Assembly: GCF_002310495.1 (NCBI RefSeq)
Contig: NZ_CP023344.1
Coordinates: 124,001 to 188,000, forward strand
DNA length: 64,000 nt
Direction of reading: 5' to 3'
Source of the DNA: Nibricoccus aquaticus
GTDB taxonomy: Bacteria > Verrucomicrobiota > Verrucomicrobiia > Opitutales > Opitutaceae
The notes beneath the pieces are model-generated. The model searched no databases, was not told where the DNA came from, and saw only the letters and a list, made by a program, of their open reading frames with translations. The number at the start of each line of letters is the position of its first letter. Position 1 is the stretch's first letter. A program made the translations under genes and the position numbers. This document shows, piece after piece, positions 45,894-55,598 of this stretch.

Positions 45894-46934
45894 ATGTCTT
45901 TCCTCCGCCTCCGTCTAGCCTCCCTCGCCCTCCTCTCCACCTTCGCCTTCACCGCCTGCGGCAAAAAACAATCCGCCCCCTCCGACTCTTCCTCCTCCAC
46001 TTCCGCTCCGTCCTCTTCCTCCACCGCCGCTCTCACCAAAATCACCGTCCAACTCGACTGGGTCGCCGAGCCCGAACACGGCGGTTTCTACCAAGCCCTC
46101 GCCCGCGGCTTCTTCCGCGAAGAAAACCTCGACGTCACCCTGATCCCCGGCGGCCCCAACGCCTTCGCCACGCAAAAAGTCGCCAGCGGCCAGGCCCAGT
46201 TCGCCCAGGCCGACAGCACCAACACCATCCTCGCCATCGCCCAGGGCATCCCCGTCATCAATTTCGCCGCCGTCTTCCAAAACGATCCCTCCGTCCTGAT
46301 GCTCCACTCGGACAACCCGGTCGCCCGCTTCGAAGACCTCGCCGGCAAGACCATCATGGCCCGCCCCGAATGGGCCTTCATCCCGTACGTGAAGAAAAAA
46401 TACGGCATCGAGTTCGGCCTCATCCCGCAAAACTTCTCCCTCGCCAACTTCGTCGCCGACAAAAATTTCATCCAGCAAGCCTTCTACATCGCCGAGCCCT
46501 TCAACGTCGCCAAGGAGAGCCACGGCACCATCAAAACGAAATACCTCTACCCGTGGGACGCCGGCTTCGACGCGTACGTCACCGTCATCGCCAACAAACC
46601 CTGGCTCGCGAAAAACCCCGACGCCGCCCGCGCCTTCTACCGCGCCTACGTCCGCGGCTGGCAGGACTACCTCGAAGGAGACCCCGCACCCGCCCACGCC
46701 CTCATGAAGAAAGCCAACCCCGCCGCGACCGACGACTACCTCGCCTTCTCGCGCCAAATGATCATCGACGAAAAACTCGTCATCGGCCGCACCGCCACCG
46801 ACGCCTCCCAAATCGGCCGCCTCAGCCCCGCCCGCTTCCAAACCCAACTCACCCAACTCCGCGATTTGGACATCCTCAAAAAAGCCCTGACCGTCGACGA
46901 CGTCCTCGCGTCCGACAGCCCTGCCGCCAAGTAG
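45894..46934 (+). CDS. NMT1/THI5-like solute-binding lipoprotein
   Basis: Periplasmic ABC-type binding protein of 346 aa. The lipobox FAFTAC ends the signal peptide at about residue 21, followed by a Ser-rich linker. The mature fold is that of NMT1/THI5 and SsuA-like proteins: ITVQLDWVAEPEHGGFYQALARGFF (family signature), VTLIPGGPNAFATQKVASGQAQFAQ, GIPVINFAAVFQNDPSVLML, AGKTIMARPEW. Ligands in the family are pyrimidine precursors, alkanesulfonates or nitrate-like ions. No permease or ATPase gene is adjacent, so it is an orphan binding protein. An amidohydrolase gene lies 0.8 kb downstream in the same direction. Confidence 0.88.
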   Translation: MSFLRLRLASLALLSTFAFTACGKKQSAPSDSSSSTSAPSSSSTAALTKITVQLDWVAEPEHGGFYQALARGFFREENLDVTLIPGGPNAFATQKVASGQAQFAQADSTNTILAIAQGIPVINFAAVFQNDPSVLMLHSDNPVARFEDLAGKTIMARPEWAFIPYVKKKYGIEFGLIPQNFSLANFVADKNFIQQAFYIAEPFNVAKESHGTIKTKYLYPWDAGFDAYVTVIANKPWLAKNPDAARAFYRAYVRGWQDYLEGDPAPAHALMKKANPAATDDYLAFSRQMIIDEKLVIGRTATDASQIGRLSPARFQTQLTQLRDLDILKKALTVDDVLASDSPAAK

Positions 46935-47737: not shown

Positions 47738-48961
47738 ATGCCCGAACTCCGCGACTGCATCGTCCTCCACGGCCCCGACCTCGTGCCGCACCGCGCACGC
47801 CGCTTCGCCTGGGTTCACGACACCATCACCGCCATCGAACTCGGCGAACCCTGCACCCAGCTCGACACCGGCGCCCTCGTCGTAATCCCCGGCCTCTACA
47901 ACAGCCACACCCACATGGGCGACAGCGCCCTCCCCGACGGCGCCACCGGCCTCACCCTCGAACAAGCCTTCTTCCGGCCCGACGGCTATAAATACCGCGA
48001 ACTCGCAAAACTCTCCGAGGAAACCCACCTCCCGCACCTCGTCGCCCATCTTGGATACATGGCCCGCTGCGGCGTCGTCTGCCACCTCGACTTCCGCGAA
48101 CAAGGCCTCCCCGGCGCCCGCCTCCTCCGCAAAGCCTCCGAGCAAACCGGCGTCCAATCCATCATCCTCAGCCAGTTCAACGAATCGCCCATCCCCGAAG
48201 ACCAGCTCCGCGCCAACCTCTCGCCCCTCCCCGAAACCGCGCGCCTCGAACTCGAGCAAATCCTCACCATCGCCGACGGCTTCTCCGAAAGCACGATGAA
48301 CGACCTCACGGACAACGCCTGGCGCGAAATCCGCGACATCACCTCCGCCCGCCGCAAACTCCGCGCCATCCACTGCCTCGAAAACCCCGGCTACCGCGAC
48401 CTCTCCGTCGCGACCACCGGGCGCGGCGACCTCATCCGCGCGCTCGAGATTTACGACCCGCACCTCGTCGTGCACATGACCGCCGCCAACGCCGACGAAA
48501 TCGCCCTCCTCGCCCGCTCCGGCAAAACCGCCGTCCTCAACCCCCGCGCCAACGCCGCCCTCGGCCTCGCCCTCCCGCCCGTCGCCGCCCTCCTCGCCGC
48601 CGGCGCCAATCTCCTCCTCGGCACCGACAACGGCATGCTCAACAGCCCCTCGATCCTCGCGGAGTTGGATTTCACCTTTAAAGTCGCCAAGTCCCAATTC
48701 GCCGACGCCCTCCGCCCCGATCCGACGGCGATCTTGAAAATGGCCACGAGCAACATCCGCCCCGCGCTCGGCGGCGACCACTTCGGCCACCTCGCCCACG
48801 GCCTGCCCGCCAGCTTCGTCATCCTCGACTTCACCGCCCCCCACCTCCGCGCCACGCGACATATTACCGCAAGCATCGTCGGCCGAGTCACCCCCGCCGA
48901 CATCCTCGCCACCTACCACACCGGCCGCGAACTCTACCGCGCGCCCGCATTCACCTTCTAG
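47738..48961 (+). CDS. Amidohydrolase-superfamily protein (ATZ/TRZ-like deaminase)
   Basis: Metal-dependent hydrolase of 407 aa. The HxH metal site is in IPGLYNSHTHMGDSALP; further metal ligands are likely in RAIHCLEN, LVVHMTAANADE and LLGTDNGML (the catalytic Asp). The C-terminal segment GLPASFVILDFTAPHLR is the usual beta-sandwich return. Family members deaminate or hydrolyse C-N bonds of purines, pyrimidines and related rings (guanine/cytosine deaminases, atrazine-type enzymes). Together with the upstream binding protein it could serve a nucleobase or pyrimidine salvage route, but this is a guess from proximity. Confidence 0.82.
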   Translation: MPELRDCIVLHGPDLVPHRARRFAWVHDTITAIELGEPCTQLDTGALVVIPGLYNSHTHMGDSALPDGATGLTLEQAFFRPDGYKYRELAKLSEETHLPHLVAHLGYMARCGVVCHLDFREQGLPGARLLRKASEQTGVQSIILSQFNESPIPEDQLRANLSPLPETARLELEQILTIADGFSESTMNDLTDNAWREIRDITSARRKLRAIHCLENPGYRDLSVATTGRGDLIRALEIYDPHLVVHMTAANADEIALLARSGKTAVLNPRANAALGLALPPVAALLAAGANLLLGTDNGMLNSPSILAELDFTFKVAKSQFADALRPDPTAILKMATSNIRPALGGDHFGHLAHGLPASFVILDFTAPHLRATRHITASIVGRVTPADILATYHTGRELYRAPAFTF

Positions 48962-49075: not shown

Positions 49076-49426
49076 ATGACTCAAGAACGAGCAGAAAAAG
49101 CTAAACGCCCGGCCCGTGTTTCAAAATTTCACTGCTCCAAGTTCATCGACTTGGTTCTTGTTATGGATGCCGATGGGCAACGCGTCACAACGATTAAAGT
49201 GGGTCGCATCGTGAGTGATCGTCGAGAGGCTTCCGTTTGTCCCCTACTCGGCAAAGCGTATCTTGGCGGCACCGGGCGGGAAGTGAGCCTTCTGCGGGTG
49301 ATTGCTGATATTAAAGCACTCGTCGCTGCGAAAACCGGGTCGTCGAATTGGCGCTTCGCGACCAGCACAGGTGGTAAACACTCTCCTGTCGTAGCTGGGC
49401 CTCTCGCGGAAAAACTTGCGGCGTGA
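49076..49426 (+). CDS. Hypothetical protein upstream of exonuclease-BRCT gene
   Basis: A 116-aa product from MTQERAEKAKRPARVSKFHC. A central beta-rich part (FIDLVLVMDADGQRVTTIKVGRI) is followed by a helical/loop segment (REVSLLRVIADIKALVAAKT) and ends in VVAGPLAEKLAA. No signal peptide, membrane span or known motif is present. Its stop codon overlaps the GTG start of the exonuclease gene by 4 bp (GTGA), so the two are almost certainly translated together and may be partners. Its composition is lower in GC than flanking core genes. Confidence 0.65.
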   Translation: MTQERAEKAKRPARVSKFHCSKFIDLVLVMDADGQRVTTIKVGRIVSDRREASVCPLLGKAYLGGTGREVSLLRVIADIKALVAAKTGSSNWRFATSTGGKHSPVVAGPLAEKLAA

Positions 49427-50280
49427 AAGCAACTAACTGGGTGCTGATCGATACGGAGACTTCCGGGATCTACACCAACCCGGTTTACTGCGTGGAAATT
49501 GCTGCCCAGCGAATGCGCGGGCTGGAGCCTGACGGAGAGCCTTTTCATGCCTTTCTGAACCACGAGGCGGAGATCGAGCTAGGAGCCGAGCGGGCTCATG
49601 GCTACAGCCGTGAGTATCTTCGTCGGCATGGACGCGCTCCCAAAGACGTACACCAAGATCTGCAATCATTCGTGGGATCGCTGCCCGTCGTAGCATATAA
49701 CTTCGGTTACGATTTCACTCGGGTGCTCATTCCAGAATCTCAGCGCCTTGGGATGGATTGGGAGCCCAACCGCGGCTTCTGCGCCATGGCTCTTGCTAGG
49801 AGATGCATCCCTCAAATGCACTCCCACAAGCTTCAGATACTAGCTGAGCGTTTTCTTCCCGACGCGCCTCCACAGGCACATCAAGCCAAAGGGGATGTCG
49901 GGCTGACTATCAGGCTGCTTCGCGAAGTGATCTATCCACTTCTCGAAAACCGAGGGCACACTGCATTCAAAGCTATCGTCGAAATCGCAGATGGTTTTTC
50001 GCCATTCGAAACTCACGAAGCGCCCGAATTCAGTCGCTCATTTCCCGAAAGTAAAAAGCTGGCAGGCCTCAGGTTCGTGATAACAGGCACTCTGAGATCG
50101 ATGGATCGGGAGGATGCCGAAAGTATGATCGCCGCTGCGGGAGGACGAACATCTTCTTCTGTAAGCGGAAAGACCGACTATCTGTTGGTTGGAATCGATG
50201 CAGGTTCGAAACTAACCAAAGCGAGAGATCTAGGCATAAAACTGATCGGCGAGGATGAGCTCTTTGAGATGCTTAAATGA
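49423..50280 (+). CDS. DnaQ-like 3'-5' exonuclease fused to a BRCT domain
   Basis: A 285-aa protein. The N-terminal exonuclease (DEDD type) has ExoI WVLIDTETSG, ExoII YNFGYDFTRVLIPES and ExoIII HQAKGDVGLTIRLL (the final catalytic Asp). The C-terminal ~75 residues are a BRCT module of the NAD-ligase type: LAGLRFVITGTLRSMDREDA, SSVSGKTDYLLVGID, GSKLTKARDLGIKLIGEDEL. BRCT domains recognise DNA ends or phosphoproteins, so the fusion suggests DNA-end processing. It begins with GTG overlapping the preceding small gene. The pair has atypical composition and no other repair gene beside it. Confidence 0.85.
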   Translation: MKATNWVLIDTETSGIYTNPVYCVEIAAQRMRGLEPDGEPFHAFLNHEAEIELGAERAHGYSREYLRRHGRAPKDVHQDLQSFVGSLPVVAYNFGYDFTRVLIPESQRLGMDWEPNRGFCAMALARRCIPQMHSHKLQILAERFLPDAPPQAHQAKGDVGLTIRLLREVIYPLLENRGHTAFKAIVEIADGFSPFETHEAPEFSRSFPESKKLAGLRFVITGTLRSMDREDAESMIAAAGGRTSSSVSGKTDYLLVGIDAGSKLTKARDLGIKLIGEDELFEMLK

Positions 50281-50355
50281 ACTTACGCATCGAGTCCCCA
50301 AAAGACGCTGGAGCGAAAGTCCTATCAGGCCCGTAACACCATTGTCTCCTCTGAA

Positions 50356-50386
50356 CTCCGCGTCCTCCGCGTCTCCGCGGTGAAAC
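50356..50386. repeat. CTCCGCGTCTCCGCGG repeat
   Basis: Two tandem CTCCGCGTC units followed by TCCGCGGTGAAAC. It is related to 43573-43590. It lies immediately before the 231-bp duplicated segment. Confidence 0.65.
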
Positions 50387-50395
50387 TTTCCCTTT

Positions 50396-50626
50396 GCGCT
50401 CCGCTCCGTCTTGCGTGGCCATCACCTCATGCCGCAACCCACCGCCCGCGAACGCTTCTTCCCGCTCCTCCGCACCGCCCTCGCGGAAAGCACCTTCGTG
50501 AAGCTCACCCTCGGCAAACACCGCGGCGCCGACACCACGCTCAACAACCTCTTCATCCGCCCCGTCGTCCTGAAGACCGGCCCGCAGCTCACCTTCGTCT
50601 ACCGCCACGCCACCCGCGACATCACG
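50396..50626 (+). repeat. 231-bp direct repeat, copy 1 (intact-start copy)
   Basis: It matches 51805-52035 without gaps, differing at about 16 positions (93% identity). This copy contains the ATG (50429) of the small gene. The two copies lie 1409 bp apart and bracket the EamA transporter gene. Confidence 0.9.
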
Positions 50627-50815
50627 AAAAACCACGCTTACGCCGAAGCCATCGCCCTCATCGAACAACTCATCGGCACCGACTTCCTCGACGCCCACCT
50701 GTTCACCAGCGCCGAAACCGTCCAGCTCGCCACCGATGCCGAAGGTATCACCCGTTTCTCGCTAAAAAAACTCCCCCACCCCGCCAGCCCCGAGTCTCCG
50801 TCCCCCATCGCCTGA
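50429..50815 (+). CDS. Conserved-looking 128-aa protein, possibly a truncated methyltransferase-type gene
   Basis: The product begins MPQPTARERFFPLLRTALAE and continues FVKLTLGKHRGADTTLNNLF, RPVVLKTGPQLTFVYRHATR and LIEQLIGTDFLDAHLFTSAE. I recall a similar N-terminal domain in uncharacterised Verrucomicrobiota SAM-dependent methyltransferases of about 390 aa, which would make this a remnant whose catalytic half is missing, but I cannot verify that here. The tail (KKLPHPASPESPSPIA) looks degenerate. Its first ~65 codons are duplicated at 51838-52035 with the start codon lost. No catalytic motif is present, so function is not assigned. Confidence 0.5.
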   Translation: MPQPTARERFFPLLRTALAESTFVKLTLGKHRGADTTLNNLFIRPVVLKTGPQLTFVYRHATRDITKNHAYAEAIALIEQLIGTDFLDAHLFTSAETVQLATDAEGITRFSLKKLPHPASPESPSPIA

Positions 50816-50897
50816 CACGGCGAGCCCGCCGCGACTCTTCGCTCTACGCAACTGCTTCGCCCGCGATGCTCAGCTCACTCCACCGCTCGCGCATCCC

Positions 50898-51758
50898 TTG
50901 AAAGTCGCCTCCATCGTTCTCCTCACCGGCATCGCGATGCTCGCGTTTGCCGCCAACTCCGTGCTCTGCCGTCTCGCGCTCGGCCACGATGAAATCGATG
51001 CCACCGGTTTCACCGCGATCCGCCTCGCGGCCGGCGCGCTCGTACTGGCCTCAATCATAGCCGCCCGGCGCCAAAAGACATCTGCGAACCAGCGCGGAAG
51101 CTGGATCTCCGCCAGCATGCTCTTCCTTTACGCAGCCGCCTTTTCGCTCGCGTATCGCCAGCTCAGCTCAGGCACCGGCGCGCTGATACTTTTCGGCTCC
51201 GTGCAGCTCACCATGCTGATCGCCGCGCACCGCACCGGCGAGCGAGCCGCCGCGCCTGAGTGGATGGGCCTGATCCTCGCATTCGGTGGCCTGACCTACC
51301 TCGTCGCTCCAGGCATCGCCGCTCCGCCCGCACTTGGCGCAGCCTTGATGAGCGTCGCGGGCCTGGCTTGGGGCGTGTATTCGATCCGTGGACGAGGCGC
51401 GCAGGATCCGCTCGCGGTCACCGCCGGAAACTTCATCCGCTGCGTCCCCATGGCCATCATCGCGATGCTGATAGCGATCCGCACCGTCCACGTGACGCCG
51501 ACCGGCATCCTCCTCGCGGCCATCTCCGGCGCGATCACCTCCGGCCTGGGTTACGTGATCTGGTATAGCGTTCTTCCCCACCTCACCAAAACACGGGCGG
51601 CGCTCGTCCAGTTATCCGTCCCCATCATCGCCGCTCTCGGCGGCGCGGCCTTTCTTGGTGAAAAAATAACCGCACGCCTCGCCGTCGCGAGTTTGCTGGT
51701 ACTCGGCGGCATCGCCCTTGCCGTCGGCGTCAGCAGCTTCGCACCGAAAAAGTCCTGA
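50898..51758 (+). CDS. EamA/DMT-family transporter
   Basis: Ten-helix drug/metabolite transporter of 286 aa made of two EamA repeats (first helix KVASIVLLTGIAMLAFAANS; second repeat around ALGAALMSVAGLAWGVYSIR). The C-terminal repeat ends LLVLGGIALAVGVSSF. The start is a TTG at 50898; an in-frame ATG at 50934 would cut the first helix. It is flanked by a 231-bp direct duplication, the downstream copy starting 46 bp after its stop. Substrates of the family are metabolites or amino acids and cannot be predicted here. Confidence 0.88.
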   Translation: MKVASIVLLTGIAMLAFAANSVLCRLALGHDEIDATGFTAIRLAAGALVLASIIAARRQKTSANQRGSWISASMLFLYAAAFSLAYRQLSSGTGALILFGSVQLTMLIAAHRTGERAAAPEWMGLILAFGGLTYLVAPGIAAPPALGAALMSVAGLAWGVYSIRGRGAQDPLAVTAGNFIRCVPMAIIAMLIAIRTVHVTPTGILLAAISGAITSGLGYVIWYSVLPHLTKTRAALVQLSVPIIAALGGAAFLGEKITARLAVASLLVLGGIALAVGVSSFAPKKS

Positions 51759-51804
51759 ACGTTCACTGCGAGCGCATCGCGACCGCCACCCGCAAAAACC
51801 CGTT

Positions 51805-52035
51805 GCGCTCTGCCCCGTCTTGCGCGGCCATCACCGCCTGCCGCAACCCACCGCCCGCGAACGCTTCTTCCCGCTCTTCCGCACCGCCCTCGCAGAAAGC
51901 ACCTTCGTGAAGCTCACGCTCGGCAAACACCGAGGCGCCGACACCACGATCAACAACCTCTTCATCCGCCCCGTCGTCCTGAAGACCGGCCCACAGCTCA
52001 CCTTCGTCTACCGCCACGCCACGAAAGACATCACG
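51805..52035 (+). pseudogene. 231-bp direct repeat, copy 2: decayed 5' fragment of the 50429 gene
   Basis: It is 93% identical to 50396-50626. The ATG of copy 1 corresponds to CTG here, and the frame leaves the homologous segment about 65 codons in and runs into unrelated sequence. No ribosome site or stop-proximal coding character supports expression, so it is treated as a duplicated gene remnant. The homologous reading frame itself is preserved, consistent with recent origin. Confidence 0.8.
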
Positions 52036-52095
52036 AAGAAGGGGAAAAGGGATCAAACTGAGATCGTCCCGCCTTCCCGGGTTCGCGCATCCCGC

Positions 52096-52869
52096 TCAAA
52101 AGGTCTTCAACCGGATATTCCGGTACTCGACTTTCATCGGCGGCCCCGTGTGGACCTGCATACCGATCTGCCCGTCCTGCGCCGGACCAGCTGTGTCGTC
52201 ATCGATCACCACGCACATCACCTGACCGTTGAGCATGTGCGTCAGCGTGTTTCCCCGTGCGATGAGATGCACCGAATTCCACCCCGGCGTGATGACCTTC
52301 GCCAGCTCCGCATCCTCGCCAATTCTTCCGATCACAATCGGCGGACGGGTTCCCACCACGCGCGAGACCGAGCCGCGCACACCGAGAAACAACCGCCCCT
52401 TTTCCTCGTAGTTGCTACCCGTGTACCGATTCTTCCCATCGAGATCGAACTGGTAGCCACGCATCGCAAACGCGTTCGTCGGCGTCACTTTGTCCGGCAC
52501 CACGCTGCTGCGATAGTTGATGCCACTGTTGCCGGATTCCGTGATGCGAAACTCCAGCCGCAGCTCGAAATCCTTCGGCCTGCCGCCCTGCCAGAGGATA
52601 AAAGTATTACTCTTCAAACGCGTCTGCTCCGTGATCTCCCCGATCATCGTGCCTGCCTCCACGCGCCAGTAAGTCAGATCACCCGCCCACCCTGTCAGAC
52701 TCTTCCCGTCAAAAATCGCCTCGAACCCCGGCTCATCGCCCTCCATCGGCGCAGGCCGGTCACTCTGCTTCGGCACATAAGCCGGCACCGTCTCGGTGCC
52801 CGTCGTCGTTTGCACACCAGCACCGCCGATCACGAGCAGGGAAAACACACACGAGAGGAAACGTTTCAT
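52096..52869 (-). CDS. 3-keto-disaccharide hydrolase / DUF1080 domain secreted protein
   Basis: A 257-aa secreted protein. The start MKRFLSCVFSLLVIGGAG gives a clean signal peptide; upstream frame is not family-like. The DUF1080 (concanavalin-like) fold is recognised by EAIFDGKSLTGWAGDLTYWRVEAG, SNTFILWQGGRPKDFELRLEF, SGNSGINYRSSVVPD, YQFDLDG and NSVHLIARGNTLTHMLNGQV. The family is very common in Verrucomicrobiota and Planctomycetes and acts on 3-keto-glucosides or related sugars. It stands alone, convergent with the duplicated fragment and divergent from leuS. Confidence 0.92.
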   Translation of the reverse strand: MKRFLSCVFSLLVIGGAGVQTTTGTETVPAYVPKQSDRPAPMEGDEPGFEAIFDGKSLTGWAGDLTYWRVEAGTMIGEITEQTRLKSNTFILWQGGRPKDFELRLEFRITESGNSGINYRSSVVPDKVTPTNAFAMRGYQFDLDGKNRYTGSNYEEKGRLFLGVRGSVSRVVGTRPPIVIGRIGEDAELAKVITPGWNSVHLIARGNTLTHMLNGQVMCVVIDDDTAGPAQDGQIGMQVHTGPPMKVEYRNIRLKTF

Positions 52870-53009: not shown

Positions 53010-55598
53010 ATGGCCACGAACAGCACCGACTACAACTTCGCCCAAATCGAGCCGCACTGGCAAAAAATCTGGGACGAGCAAAAGACCTTCCGCACGACCA
53101 ACGACACGTCGAAGCCCAAGTTCTACGCGCTCGATATGTTCCCCTACCCGTCCGGCGCCGGCCTCCACATCGGCCACCCCGAAGGCTACACCGCCACCGA
53201 CATCATCACCCGCGCCAAACGCGCCCAAGGTTTCAACGTCCTCCATCCCATCGGCTGGGACGCCTTCGGTCTCCCCGCTGAACAGCACGCCGTCAAAACC
53301 GGCACGCATCCCGCGACCAACACGCAGAACAACATCGCCAACTTCCGCCGTCAGCTGAAAGCCCTCGGCTTCGCTTACGACTGGGATCGCGAAGTCGATA
53401 CGACCGACCCGACTTACTTCCGCTGGACGCAGTGGATTTTCCTCCAGCTCTTCAAACGCGGCCTCGCCTACGTCGACGAACGCCCCGTCTGGTGGTGCCC
53501 TGAGCTCCGCACCGTCCTCGCCAACGAAGAAGTCGTCGACGGCAAATCCGAAGTCGGCGGTTTCCCCGTCGAGCGCCGCAATCTCCGCCAGTGGGTTCTG
53601 CGCATCACCGCCTACGCCGAGCGCCTGCTCGCCGACCTCAAAGACGTGGACTGGCCCGACTCCACCAAGCGCATGCAGGAAGCCTGGATCGGCCGCAGCG
53701 AAGGCGCCGAACTCCTCTTCAAGTTGGAGAAGGAAAACCTCGGCGACCTCAAGGTCTTCACCACGCGCCCCGACACCGTCTTCGGCGTCACCTACATGGT
53801 CATCGCGCCCGAGCACCCGCTCGTCGACGCGCTCACCACGCCTGCACAACGCGAGGCCGTCGAAGCCTACAAGAAAAAGGCCGCCGCCAAGAGCGACCTC
53901 GAGCGCACCGATCTCGCCAAGGATAAATCCGGCGTCTTCAGCGGCTCATTCGCGCTAAATCCCGCCAACGGCGCGCGCGTCCCCGTCTGGATCGCCGACT
54001 ACGTCGTCATGGGCTACGGCACCGGCGCGATCATGGCCGTCCCCGCGCACGACGAACGCGACTACGAGTTCGCCGTCAAATTCCAGATCCCCGTCATCCA
54101 GGTCATCGAGCCCGCCAAACACGAGGGCAACGGCGACGGGCATCCGAAACTCCCCTACACCGGCGACGGCGTGCTCGTTCACTCCGAAGGCTACTCCGGC
54201 CTGCCGTGGGAAGAGGCCAAAAAGAAAATCACCGCCGACTTCACCGCCAAAGGCCGCGGCAAAGCCACGGTGAATTACAAACTCCGCGACTGGCTCTTCT
54301 CCCGCCAACGCTACTGGGGAGAACCCTTCCCGATCGTCTGGGTAACCGAGGCCGATTACCAACGCGCCGTCACCGCACGACGAGCCGATCTGCCTCCACA
54401 ACCGATCACCTACACGAGCGAAGGCGCCACTTGGTTCGCTCTCCCGCTTCCCGCCACCGCGCTCCCGCTCGCACTGCCCGATGTCCAAAGCTATCTCCCC
54501 AGCGGCAACGGTGAAAGCCCCCTCGCCAACGTCACCGATTGGCTCGAAATCTGGTTCAACGCCGAGACCGGCGCATCCATTCCCGCTTCGCAGCCGAAAC
54601 CCGCCGGCGACGCCTGGGTTCGCGGCCGTCGCGAGACCAACACCATGCCGCAGTGGGCCGGCTCGTGCTGGTACTACCTGCGCTACCTCGATCCGAAAAA
54701 CCCCGCCGCACCCGCCTCGCCCGAGCTCCTGAAATATTGGGGCGTGCCCGACATCTACGTCGGCGGCGCCGAACATGCCGTGCTGCATCTCTTGTATGCA
54801 CGTTTCTGGCACAAGGTGCTCTTCGACGAAGGCATCGTCCCGCAGTCCGAGCCGTTCAAGAAACTCTTCCACCAAGGCATCATCCTCGGCGAAGACGGCG
54901 AAAAAATGTCCAAGAGCCGCGGTAACACCGTGAGTCCCGACGACATCATCAAGACCCACGGCGCCGACACTCTCCGTCTCTATTTGATGTTCCTCGGCCC
55001 GCTCGAAGCCATGAAACCATGGAATCCCCGTGGGATCGAAGGTGTCTACCGCTTCCTCCAAAAAATCTGGCGCGAATCCATCGCCGAAGATGGCTCCGTC
55101 AACGCCAAGGTCTCCGCCTCCGCCGAGGACTCTGCCGAACTCAGCAAGCTGCTCCACGAGACGATTAAAAAAGTCACCGAGGACATCGCTGCGCTGCGCT
55201 TCAACACCGCCATCTCGCAGATGATGATCTTCGCCAACGCGCTCCAGAAAGCGCCGTCGATCAACCGCGCGAGCCTGCGCTCATTCCTCCAACTCCTCGC
55301 GCCCTTTGCGCCTCACTTCGCCGAAGAACTTTGGGCCCGCCTCGGCGGTACCGGCTCCGTCGTCGATGCTGCTTGGCCCAAGTTCGACGCGTCGAAACTC
55401 GTTTCCACTGAAGCCAAAGTCGTCGTCCAGGTGAACGGCAAGAAACGCGCCGAGCTCCTCCTCCCCGTCGGCACGGATCAAGCCGCCGCACTCGCCGCCG
55501 CCCAAGCCAATCCCGACGCCGCACCGCACCTCACCGGCAAAGCCATCAAGCGCGTCGTCTTCGTCCCCGGTAAAATCCTGAATCTGGTCGTCGAGTAA
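53010..55598 (+). CDS. leuS: Leucyl-tRNA synthetase
   Basis: Class I synthetase of 862 aa, the length of bacterial LeuRS. HIGH box: PYPSGAGLHIGHPEGYTATD. The CP1 editing domain is present (FTTRPDTVFGVTYMVIAPEH; YGTGAIMAVPAHDERDYEFA). The catalytic tail carries GRRETNTMPQWAGSCWYYLR and the KMSKS loop ILGEDGEKMSKSRGN; the anticodon helix bundle and C-terminal domain follow (VVVQVNGKKRAELLLPVGTD). It is monocistronic, with a terminator 20 bp past the stop. Confidence 0.97.
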   Translation: MATNSTDYNFAQIEPHWQKIWDEQKTFRTTNDTSKPKFYALDMFPYPSGAGLHIGHPEGYTATDIITRAKRAQGFNVLHPIGWDAFGLPAEQHAVKTGTHPATNTQNNIANFRRQLKALGFAYDWDREVDTTDPTYFRWTQWIFLQLFKRGLAYVDERPVWWCPELRTVLANEEVVDGKSEVGGFPVERRNLRQWVLRITAYAERLLADLKDVDWPDSTKRMQEAWIGRSEGAELLFKLEKENLGDLKVFTTRPDTVFGVTYMVIAPEHPLVDALTTPAQREAVEAYKKKAAAKSDLERTDLAKDKSGVFSGSFALNPANGARVPVWIADYVVMGYGTGAIMAVPAHDERDYEFAVKFQIPVIQVIEPAKHEGNGDGHPKLPYTGDGVLVHSEGYSGLPWEEAKKKITADFTAKGRGKATVNYKLRDWLFSRQRYWGEPFPIVWVTEADYQRAVTARRADLPPQPITYTSEGATWFALPLPATALPLALPDVQSYLPSGNGESPLANVTDWLEIWFNAETGASIPASQPKPAGDAWVRGRRETNTMPQWAGSCWYYLRYLDPKNPAAPASPELLKYWGVPDIYVGGAEHAVLHLLYARFWHKVLFDEGIVPQSEPFKKLFHQGIILGEDGEKMSKSRGNTVSPDDIIKTHGADTLRLYLMFLGPLEAMKPWNPRGIEGVYRFLQKIWRESIAEDGSVNAKVSASAEDSAELSKLLHETIKKVTEDIAALRFNTAISQMMIFANALQKAPSINRASLRSFLQLLAPFAPHFAEELWARLGGTGSVVDAAWPKFDASKLVSTEAKVVVQVNGKKRAELLLPVGTDQAAALAAAQANPDAAPHLTGKAIKRVVFVPGKILNLVVE

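Follow-up and report, generated by a model that had tools for sequence, protein, structure and literature searches.

The repeat pair and its parent gene

In the chromosome of Nibricoccus aquaticus a gene for an EamA-family transporter stands between two direct copies of one short sequence. What is the sequence that has been doubled, and how did it come to lie on both sides of a transporter? We considered these questions for a window of 64 000 nucleotides, the whole stretch of DNA that was analysed, which corresponds to positions 124001–188000 of a 4,730,447-bp genome assembled as one contig. Positions given below are those of the window unless the chromosome is named.

The two copies, 50396–50626 and 51805–52035, align without gaps and have 216 of 231 bases in common (93.5%), as the original prediction of a direct duplication flanking the EamA gene had claimed. 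The full gapless match is slightly longer, pairing 50390–50631 with 51799–52040 (225 of 242 bases equal); the copies are spaced by 1409 bases from start to start and their longest identical run is 43 bp. A DNA search of the genome with the first copy retrieves the second at E = 2.4e-100, which places the resemblance far beyond chance. The same prediction noted that the start codon of the first copy has been lost in the second and that the second is cut off. Both points hold: the ATG at 50429 is aligned with a CTG at 51838, and the match ends at 52040. Given the single contig, an assembly error is an unlikely source of the arrangement.

The gene enclosed by the repeats (50898–51758, plus strand) encodes 286 residues from a TTG start, with an inner ATG at 50937. 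It matches Pfam EamA (PF00892) in two stretches (E = 4e-23, 82.6 bits against a cut-off of 28.2), and the product is predicted to work, probably, as an ordinary transporter.

The search with the first copy finds three places in the genome, namely both window copies and chromosome positions 4045510–4045751 on the minus strand (G000:C1:4045510-4045751(-)). This third copy is 96% identical to the first over 242 bp and forms the 5′ end of an intact open reading frame at 4.044–4.046 Mb, also on the minus strand, which encodes 468 amino acids from the ATG matching that of the first copy or 474 from a TTG. The frame carries Methyltransf_32 (PF13679; 97.5 bits against a cut-off of 27, E = 9e-28). By its predicted product the intact copy is the gene of a SAM-dependent methyltransferase and, judged by alignment, both window repeats are 5′ fragments of this one gene. 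A full-length homologue of the interrupted gene, for which a search had been proposed, is therefore present on the same chromosome, at 4.0457 Mb. Stub 1, as we call the first copy, lies at 174.4 kb of the chromosome on the plus strand and the intact copy at 4045.7 kb on the minus strand, so that the two are in opposite orientation and 0.86 Mb apart.

A methyltransferase match (E ≤ 1e-30) is found in 204 of 252 genomes of the family (Opitutaceae), with that of N. aquaticus counted. Directly behind the intact gene is a tandem paralogue (L117:6814-8031, chromosome 4042813–4044030) that also carries Methyltransf_32, is 35% identical and strongly diverged, and has a very long branch in the methyltransferase tree. 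In that tree three of 26 forks are starred and the intact copy is sister to that of G002 (98/97); it says only that the intact copy appears to be an ordinary member and its neighbour a distant paralogue.

Stub 1 (50390–50820, plus strand, the right edge being approximate) holds an open frame from the ATG at 50429 to a stop at 50815. It matches the intact gene for about 190 bp beyond its match to stub 2, to about 50820; the alignment is gapless at first; after codon 114 a homopolymer differs in length and the frame shifts. Stub 2 (51791–52040, plus strand) retains less of the 5′ part of this gene. On the left it can be aligned with the intact copy for 8 bp more than stub 1, with a weaker gapped continuation further left. 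Neither stub has a Pfam or NCBIfam match at E ≤ 0.1, the methyltransferase domain is missing from both, and the rest of the gene was not found beside either of them.

Over 114 codons stub 1 differs from the intact gene by 13 nonsynonymous and eight synonymous changes (dN/dS 0.53, one-sided binomial p = 0.13). The values for stub 2 against the intact gene (66 codons; dN/dS 0.52, p = 0.13) and for the two stubs against each other (dN/dS 0.33, p = 0.13) are similar. Purifying selection on stub 1 is thus not significant, and a dN/dS of 0.53 would be compatible with some mild selection. The lack of a domain match, the frameshift and the absence of significant selection lead us to read both copies as stubs, which are most likely inert. 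The original prediction that the first copy opens a short gene does not stand, since this copy is a 5′ remnant, with a frameshift, of the methyltransferase gene that is intact elsewhere. Its suggestion that one copy has decayed is right for stub 2, which lacks the ATG, but incomplete, as stub 1 is broken too.

We also compared the three copies with one another over the 231 bases. Private differences number two in stub 1, 11 in stub 2 and four in the intact copy, and at two positions all three differ. Of two neighbouring residues that set both stubs apart from the intact copy, most relatives share the intact form at one and the form of the stubs at the other. Informative sites are too few to fix the order of duplication.

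Gene neighbourhoods at the two sites

On the plus strand of the window the gene order is that of an NMT1/THI5-like solute-binding protein (45894–46934; PF09084, E = 7e-36), an amidohydrolase (47738–48961; PF01979), an exonuclease–BRCT fusion (49423–50280; PF00929 and PF00533) and stub 1. A copy of a dispersed intergenic repeat (50346–50386, plus strand, with a 29-base core at 50356–50384) abuts the left edge of stub 1 and could mark a crossover or break point. The repeat has at least 25 further matches in the same genome at E < 0.02 among the 40 of 210 candidates that were scored; some copies occur as inverted pairs, at 2292527/2292576 and 3775359/3775408.

Beyond stub 2 is a gene of the 3-keto-disaccharide hydrolase family (52096–52869, minus strand; PF06439). 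A second copy of it is present at 38.7 kb of the chromosome (74% identity in DNA, 67% in protein), so that another duplicate adjoins the scar. It is followed on the plus strand by a gene that we take, from its sequence, to encode leucyl-tRNA synthetase (LeuS; 53010–55598). Between 44 and 58 kb of the window no Rfam family reaches its gathering score, and a scan of the window for tRNA genes gives one, at 5.3 kb. A mobile element at the borders of the repeat was considered and, on these signs, rejected; the DNA of stub 1 also has no counterpart among 72,556 plasmid records (E ≤ 1e-5).

To which gene, then, did the methyltransferase once adjoin? The amidohydrolase has an orthologue in 49 relatives, all of other genera, and the surroundings were fetched for 26 of these. 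The loci were taken mainly from best matches and suggestive coordinates, not at random, and some were picked because earlier coordinates pointed to a neighbour. The methyltransferase gene follows the amidohydrolase directly and on the same strand in eight of the 26 (G006, G019, G021, G023, G058, G059, G061 and G063), representing four genera, and lies 2.9 kb behind it in G057. It is absent from the stretches fetched for the remaining 17. Short amidohydrolase loci of 13 further relatives, with up to 1.5 kb on each side, do not contain it (0/13), which gives a direct link in eight of 39 relatives checked overall. Nor is it present in the amidohydrolase loci of nine named genomes (five Opitutaceae and one each of Opitutae, Verrucomicrobia, Verrucomicrobiota and Akkermansia muciniphila). 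A LeuS tree of 21 genomes groups Nibricoccus with the genera g67, g3 and g5 (support 87/83); g67, the genus closest by LeuS identity, which includes G230, falls among the relatives lacking the link, and the window amidohydrolase is often closer in identity to loci that lack it.

Several relatives likewise have the solute-binding protein gene upstream of the methyltransferase. G021 and G023 carry all three genes, with the amidohydrolase in the middle and the methyltransferase last. Four others (G003, G230, G014 and G142) lack the amidohydrolase at this place, and the solute-binding protein gene is followed by the methyltransferase at distances of 20 bp to 1.5 kb (within 1.6 kb). On the other side, of the 18 loci with a visible 3′ flank, 15 have an Rsm22-like gene (PF09243) behind the methyltransferase and on its strand, the exceptions being G002, G004 and G142; the count leaves out G063, which ends inside the gene. 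An Rsm22-like gene is also found 3′ of the intact copy at 4.04 Mb in N. aquaticus, with the paralogue between them. The neighbours in relatives therefore indicate that the genes 5′ of the methyltransferase have been kept at the window and those 3′ of it at 4.04 Mb.

The reciprocal join can be sought on the other side of the intact copy. Upstream of it, all on the minus strand, are an α/β-hydrolase gene, an open reading frame without a family and a gene for a 938-residue protein, presumably, from its sequence, a type IA topoisomerase. The latter, at 4.05 Mb, precedes the intact methyltransferase by 2.6 kb. The topoisomerase gene was sought and found in 20 relatives, and its 3′ flank was fetched in 17. 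In 14 of the 17 a gene for a class II fructose-bisphosphate aldolase, 82–94% identical to that of N. aquaticus, comes after it on its own strand at no more than about 6 kb; the link is missing in G002, G004 and G125. The aldolase gene of N. aquaticus is found at 192.8 kb of the chromosome, on the plus strand and downstream of the window stubs. Partners have thus been exchanged, amidohydrolase and methyltransferase with respect to some relatives (8/39), topoisomerase and aldolase with respect to most (14/17). As the chromosome now stands, the aldolase side lies beyond the amidohydrolase side, and the intact methyltransferase comes after the topoisomerase.

LeuS was also tried as a marker of the reciprocal join and rejected, as it adjoins neither the amidohydrolase nor the methyltransferase in the relatives examined. 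With the genes that follow it LeuS forms a conserved block in most of these relatives, away from the amidohydrolase. It is 20 kb from the topoisomerase in G066 and 75–124 kb from it in G142, G057, G178, G019 and G004, in varying order. The block seems to have moved separately and is not used as evidence.

A probable large rearrangement and its alternatives

We were left with a gene whose beginning is present three times and whose neighbours are divided between two sites. Our reading is that the window probably holds one breakpoint of a large rearrangement, and it is likely that the stubs are its scar, the event having left the beginning of the methyltransferase gene behind as a second copy in the opposite orientation. 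We infer that the window is the old site of the methyltransferase gene, where it would have stood downstream of the solute-binding protein and amidohydrolase genes, and that a single event moved it. One break would have fallen at the start of the methyltransferase gene, the other between the genes for type IA topoisomerase and class II aldolase, and the broken halves would have joined the other way round. The intact methyltransferase gene would thereby have arrived at 4.0457 Mb, behind the topoisomerase, with a duplicate inverted 5′ end staying at the window breakpoint. Other events, whose order is likewise a matter of reconstruction, would then have filled the scar with the second stub, the exonuclease–BRCT gene and the EamA gene.

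If the two neighbourhoods were originally on opposite strands, one inversion gives both the present joins and the present strands. The strands fit, with the window on plus and the 4.05 Mb site on minus. Topoisomerase and methyltransferase are on one contig in 11 relatives, and in eight of these they are on opposite strands. Measured along the short arc, the point halfway between the breakpoints is at 4.475 Mb and falls inside the interval 4.33–4.55 Mb in which the GC skew switches sign (the switch being known to 0.22 Mb); in 20 samples of 20 kb the skew is +0.245 at 4.31–4.33 Mb and −0.18 at 4.55–4.57 Mb. We estimate that a midpoint would fall inside this interval by chance about one time in ten. 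The sampled skew also has a switch near 2.15 Mb but none at dnaA, which occupies bases 31–1380 of the chromosome.

The three remaining relatives (3/11) have topoisomerase and methyltransferase on the same strand, and from such an order excision and re-insertion would give the same joins. A circle carrying the stretch from the aldolase gene to the solute-binding protein and amidohydrolase genes would have been cut from between topoisomerase and methyltransferase and inserted at 0.17–0.19 Mb, with a copy of the methyltransferase 5′ end. This route, which overlaps with our explanation, is possible but the less probable course. On a single strand of G142, G163 and G230, and over 11–74 kb, the topoisomerase gene is followed first by the aldolase gene and then by the methyltransferase; G142 and G230 have the solute-binding protein gene there too. 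In N. aquaticus the intervening piece is gone from this place, and its ends face each other across an 18.8-kb gap at 0.17–0.19 Mb. However, a single inversion is enough for the opposite strands of the other eight relatives, the amidohydrolase of G230 is outside the interval in question, and this route gives no reason to expect breakpoints placed almost symmetrically about the skew switch. Within the rearrangement reading we therefore lean towards an inversion with duplication at the breakpoint over excision and re-insertion, bearing in mind that the rearrangement is read across genera.

The original prediction had explained the repeat by an insertion of the transporter that duplicated part of a pre-existing gene at this place, with no wider rearrangement. 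Part of this stands, as a direct duplication does flank the EamA gene. The transporter is also absent from the amidohydrolase neighbourhood of relatives, as had been anticipated, with an EamA match in none of the 26 fetched stretches. EamA relatives occur in 15 of 252 family genomes, own included (E ≤ 1e-20); the nine nearest are 46–57% identical and five more 31–35%. Two full-length genes with the transporter between them, the arrangement named as counter-evidence, were not seen; the loci of 14 EamA relatives, with up to 1.5 kb on each side, contain no methyltransferase match. Yet the gene order points to a chromosomal rearrangement that split two neighbourhoods. An insertion does not explain an intact copy 0.86 Mb away in opposite orientation or the exchanged partner genes at both sites, and the rest of the gene adjoins neither stub. 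We regard insertion by itself as unlikely.

The patchy distribution of the EamA gene and its absence from the 26 stretches suggest that it was probably gained late. Relatives of 51–56% identity are found in plasmid records, of the Burkholderia group and others, with Burkholderia at the top, among the best five of 475 matches. These identities are similar to those within the family, which fits horizontal gain and would give no date. The GC3 of the gene is 0.79, near the 0.81 of LeuS. The exonuclease–BRCT gene has a GC content of 0.533 and a GC3 of 0.54 in a GC-rich genome, is found in four of 252 family genomes (own included) and was, by these signs, probably acquired. The scar thus holds one foreign-looking gene and a transporter of patchy distribution. 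We note that the 89 bases upstream of the intact copy resemble those upstream of stub 2 to a degree equalled in 12 of 2000 shuffles (11 bases next to the match being left out and base composition alone being kept). The same test for stub 1 gives no signal (1017/2000). This is suggestive only, but the 3′ end of the EamA gene may once have lain beside the start of the intact gene.

Could stub 1 be a functional gene in its own right, encoding the N-terminal methyltransferase domain as a separate protein of 128 residues? Its open frame spans the whole N-terminal part that is conserved in relatives, and the dN/dS against the intact copy, given above, is of the kind that such a gene might have. Against this, the frame is shifted after codon 114, the nonsynonymous deficit is not significant, no free N-terminal part is found beside the amidohydrolase in any of the 26 fetched loci and, in a weak test, no promoter-like site was found. 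The idea is improbable, and stub 1 should not be annotated as a small gene. As the original prediction proposed, the EamA gene might be looped out by recombination between the direct stubs, for which the 43-bp identical run offers a possible substrate. It is improbable that the scar is a working device in which the EamA gene is lost or amplified through the direct stubs and the chromosome flips to and fro by recombination with the inverted intact copy (4.0457 Mb); both the dose of the transporter and the order of the chromosome could then be switched.

Comparison with known systems

Furuta and coworkers are reported to have described, in 2011, duplicate copies lying inverted at the two breakpoints of an inversion. 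In N. aquaticus the same segment is present at both breakpoints, inverted and 96% identical over 242 bp. The process, termed DNA duplication associated with inversion, occurs in other bacteria and is reported, in the excerpts consulted, for Helicobacter pylori, Thiomonas and Thermus (PMC8963470; PMC3120642). The likeness to those accounts extends to a large rearrangement, a duplicated breakpoint segment and genes born or broken there. Unlike them, the present case has just the 5′ end of a gene doubled, a second stub and other genes have been added, and the inversion itself would be one read across genera.

The general mechanism is thus already known from other bacteria, and the scar is a clear piece of genome history of a known kind. 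An odd repeat becomes a landmark here, because three copies of one gene start and the flanking gene order trace a rearrangement of the chromosome. It shows a conserved gene neighbourhood that was split without loss of the gene, and other genes collecting at the scar. A search of the literature, judged by title, returned no paper on genome inversion in Opitutaceae.

Two further systems may be compared, again from excerpts of the papers. In H. pylori the 3′ part of an ATPase gene (CHA-ud), brought by an inversion and then duplicated, flanks cagA as direct repeats, and recombination changes the copy number (PMC6672019). There, as here, a fragment of another gene forms direct repeats around a gene. 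The fragment is the 3′ part of an ATPase gene in one case, with variable copy number, and the 5′ end of a methyltransferase gene in the other, with an EamA gene as cargo and a change of copy number as a possibility. Symmetric inversions are described as the predominant large variation in bacterial chromosomes (PMC9584773), and the breakpoints in N. aquaticus resemble such replication-associated inversions in being roughly symmetric about the GC-skew switch. As far as the consulted part of that survey goes, the same, often abundant, repeat is present at both ends (transposase genes in one example), whereas here the shared segment is the 5′ end of one gene and the dispersed repeat abuts stub 1 only.
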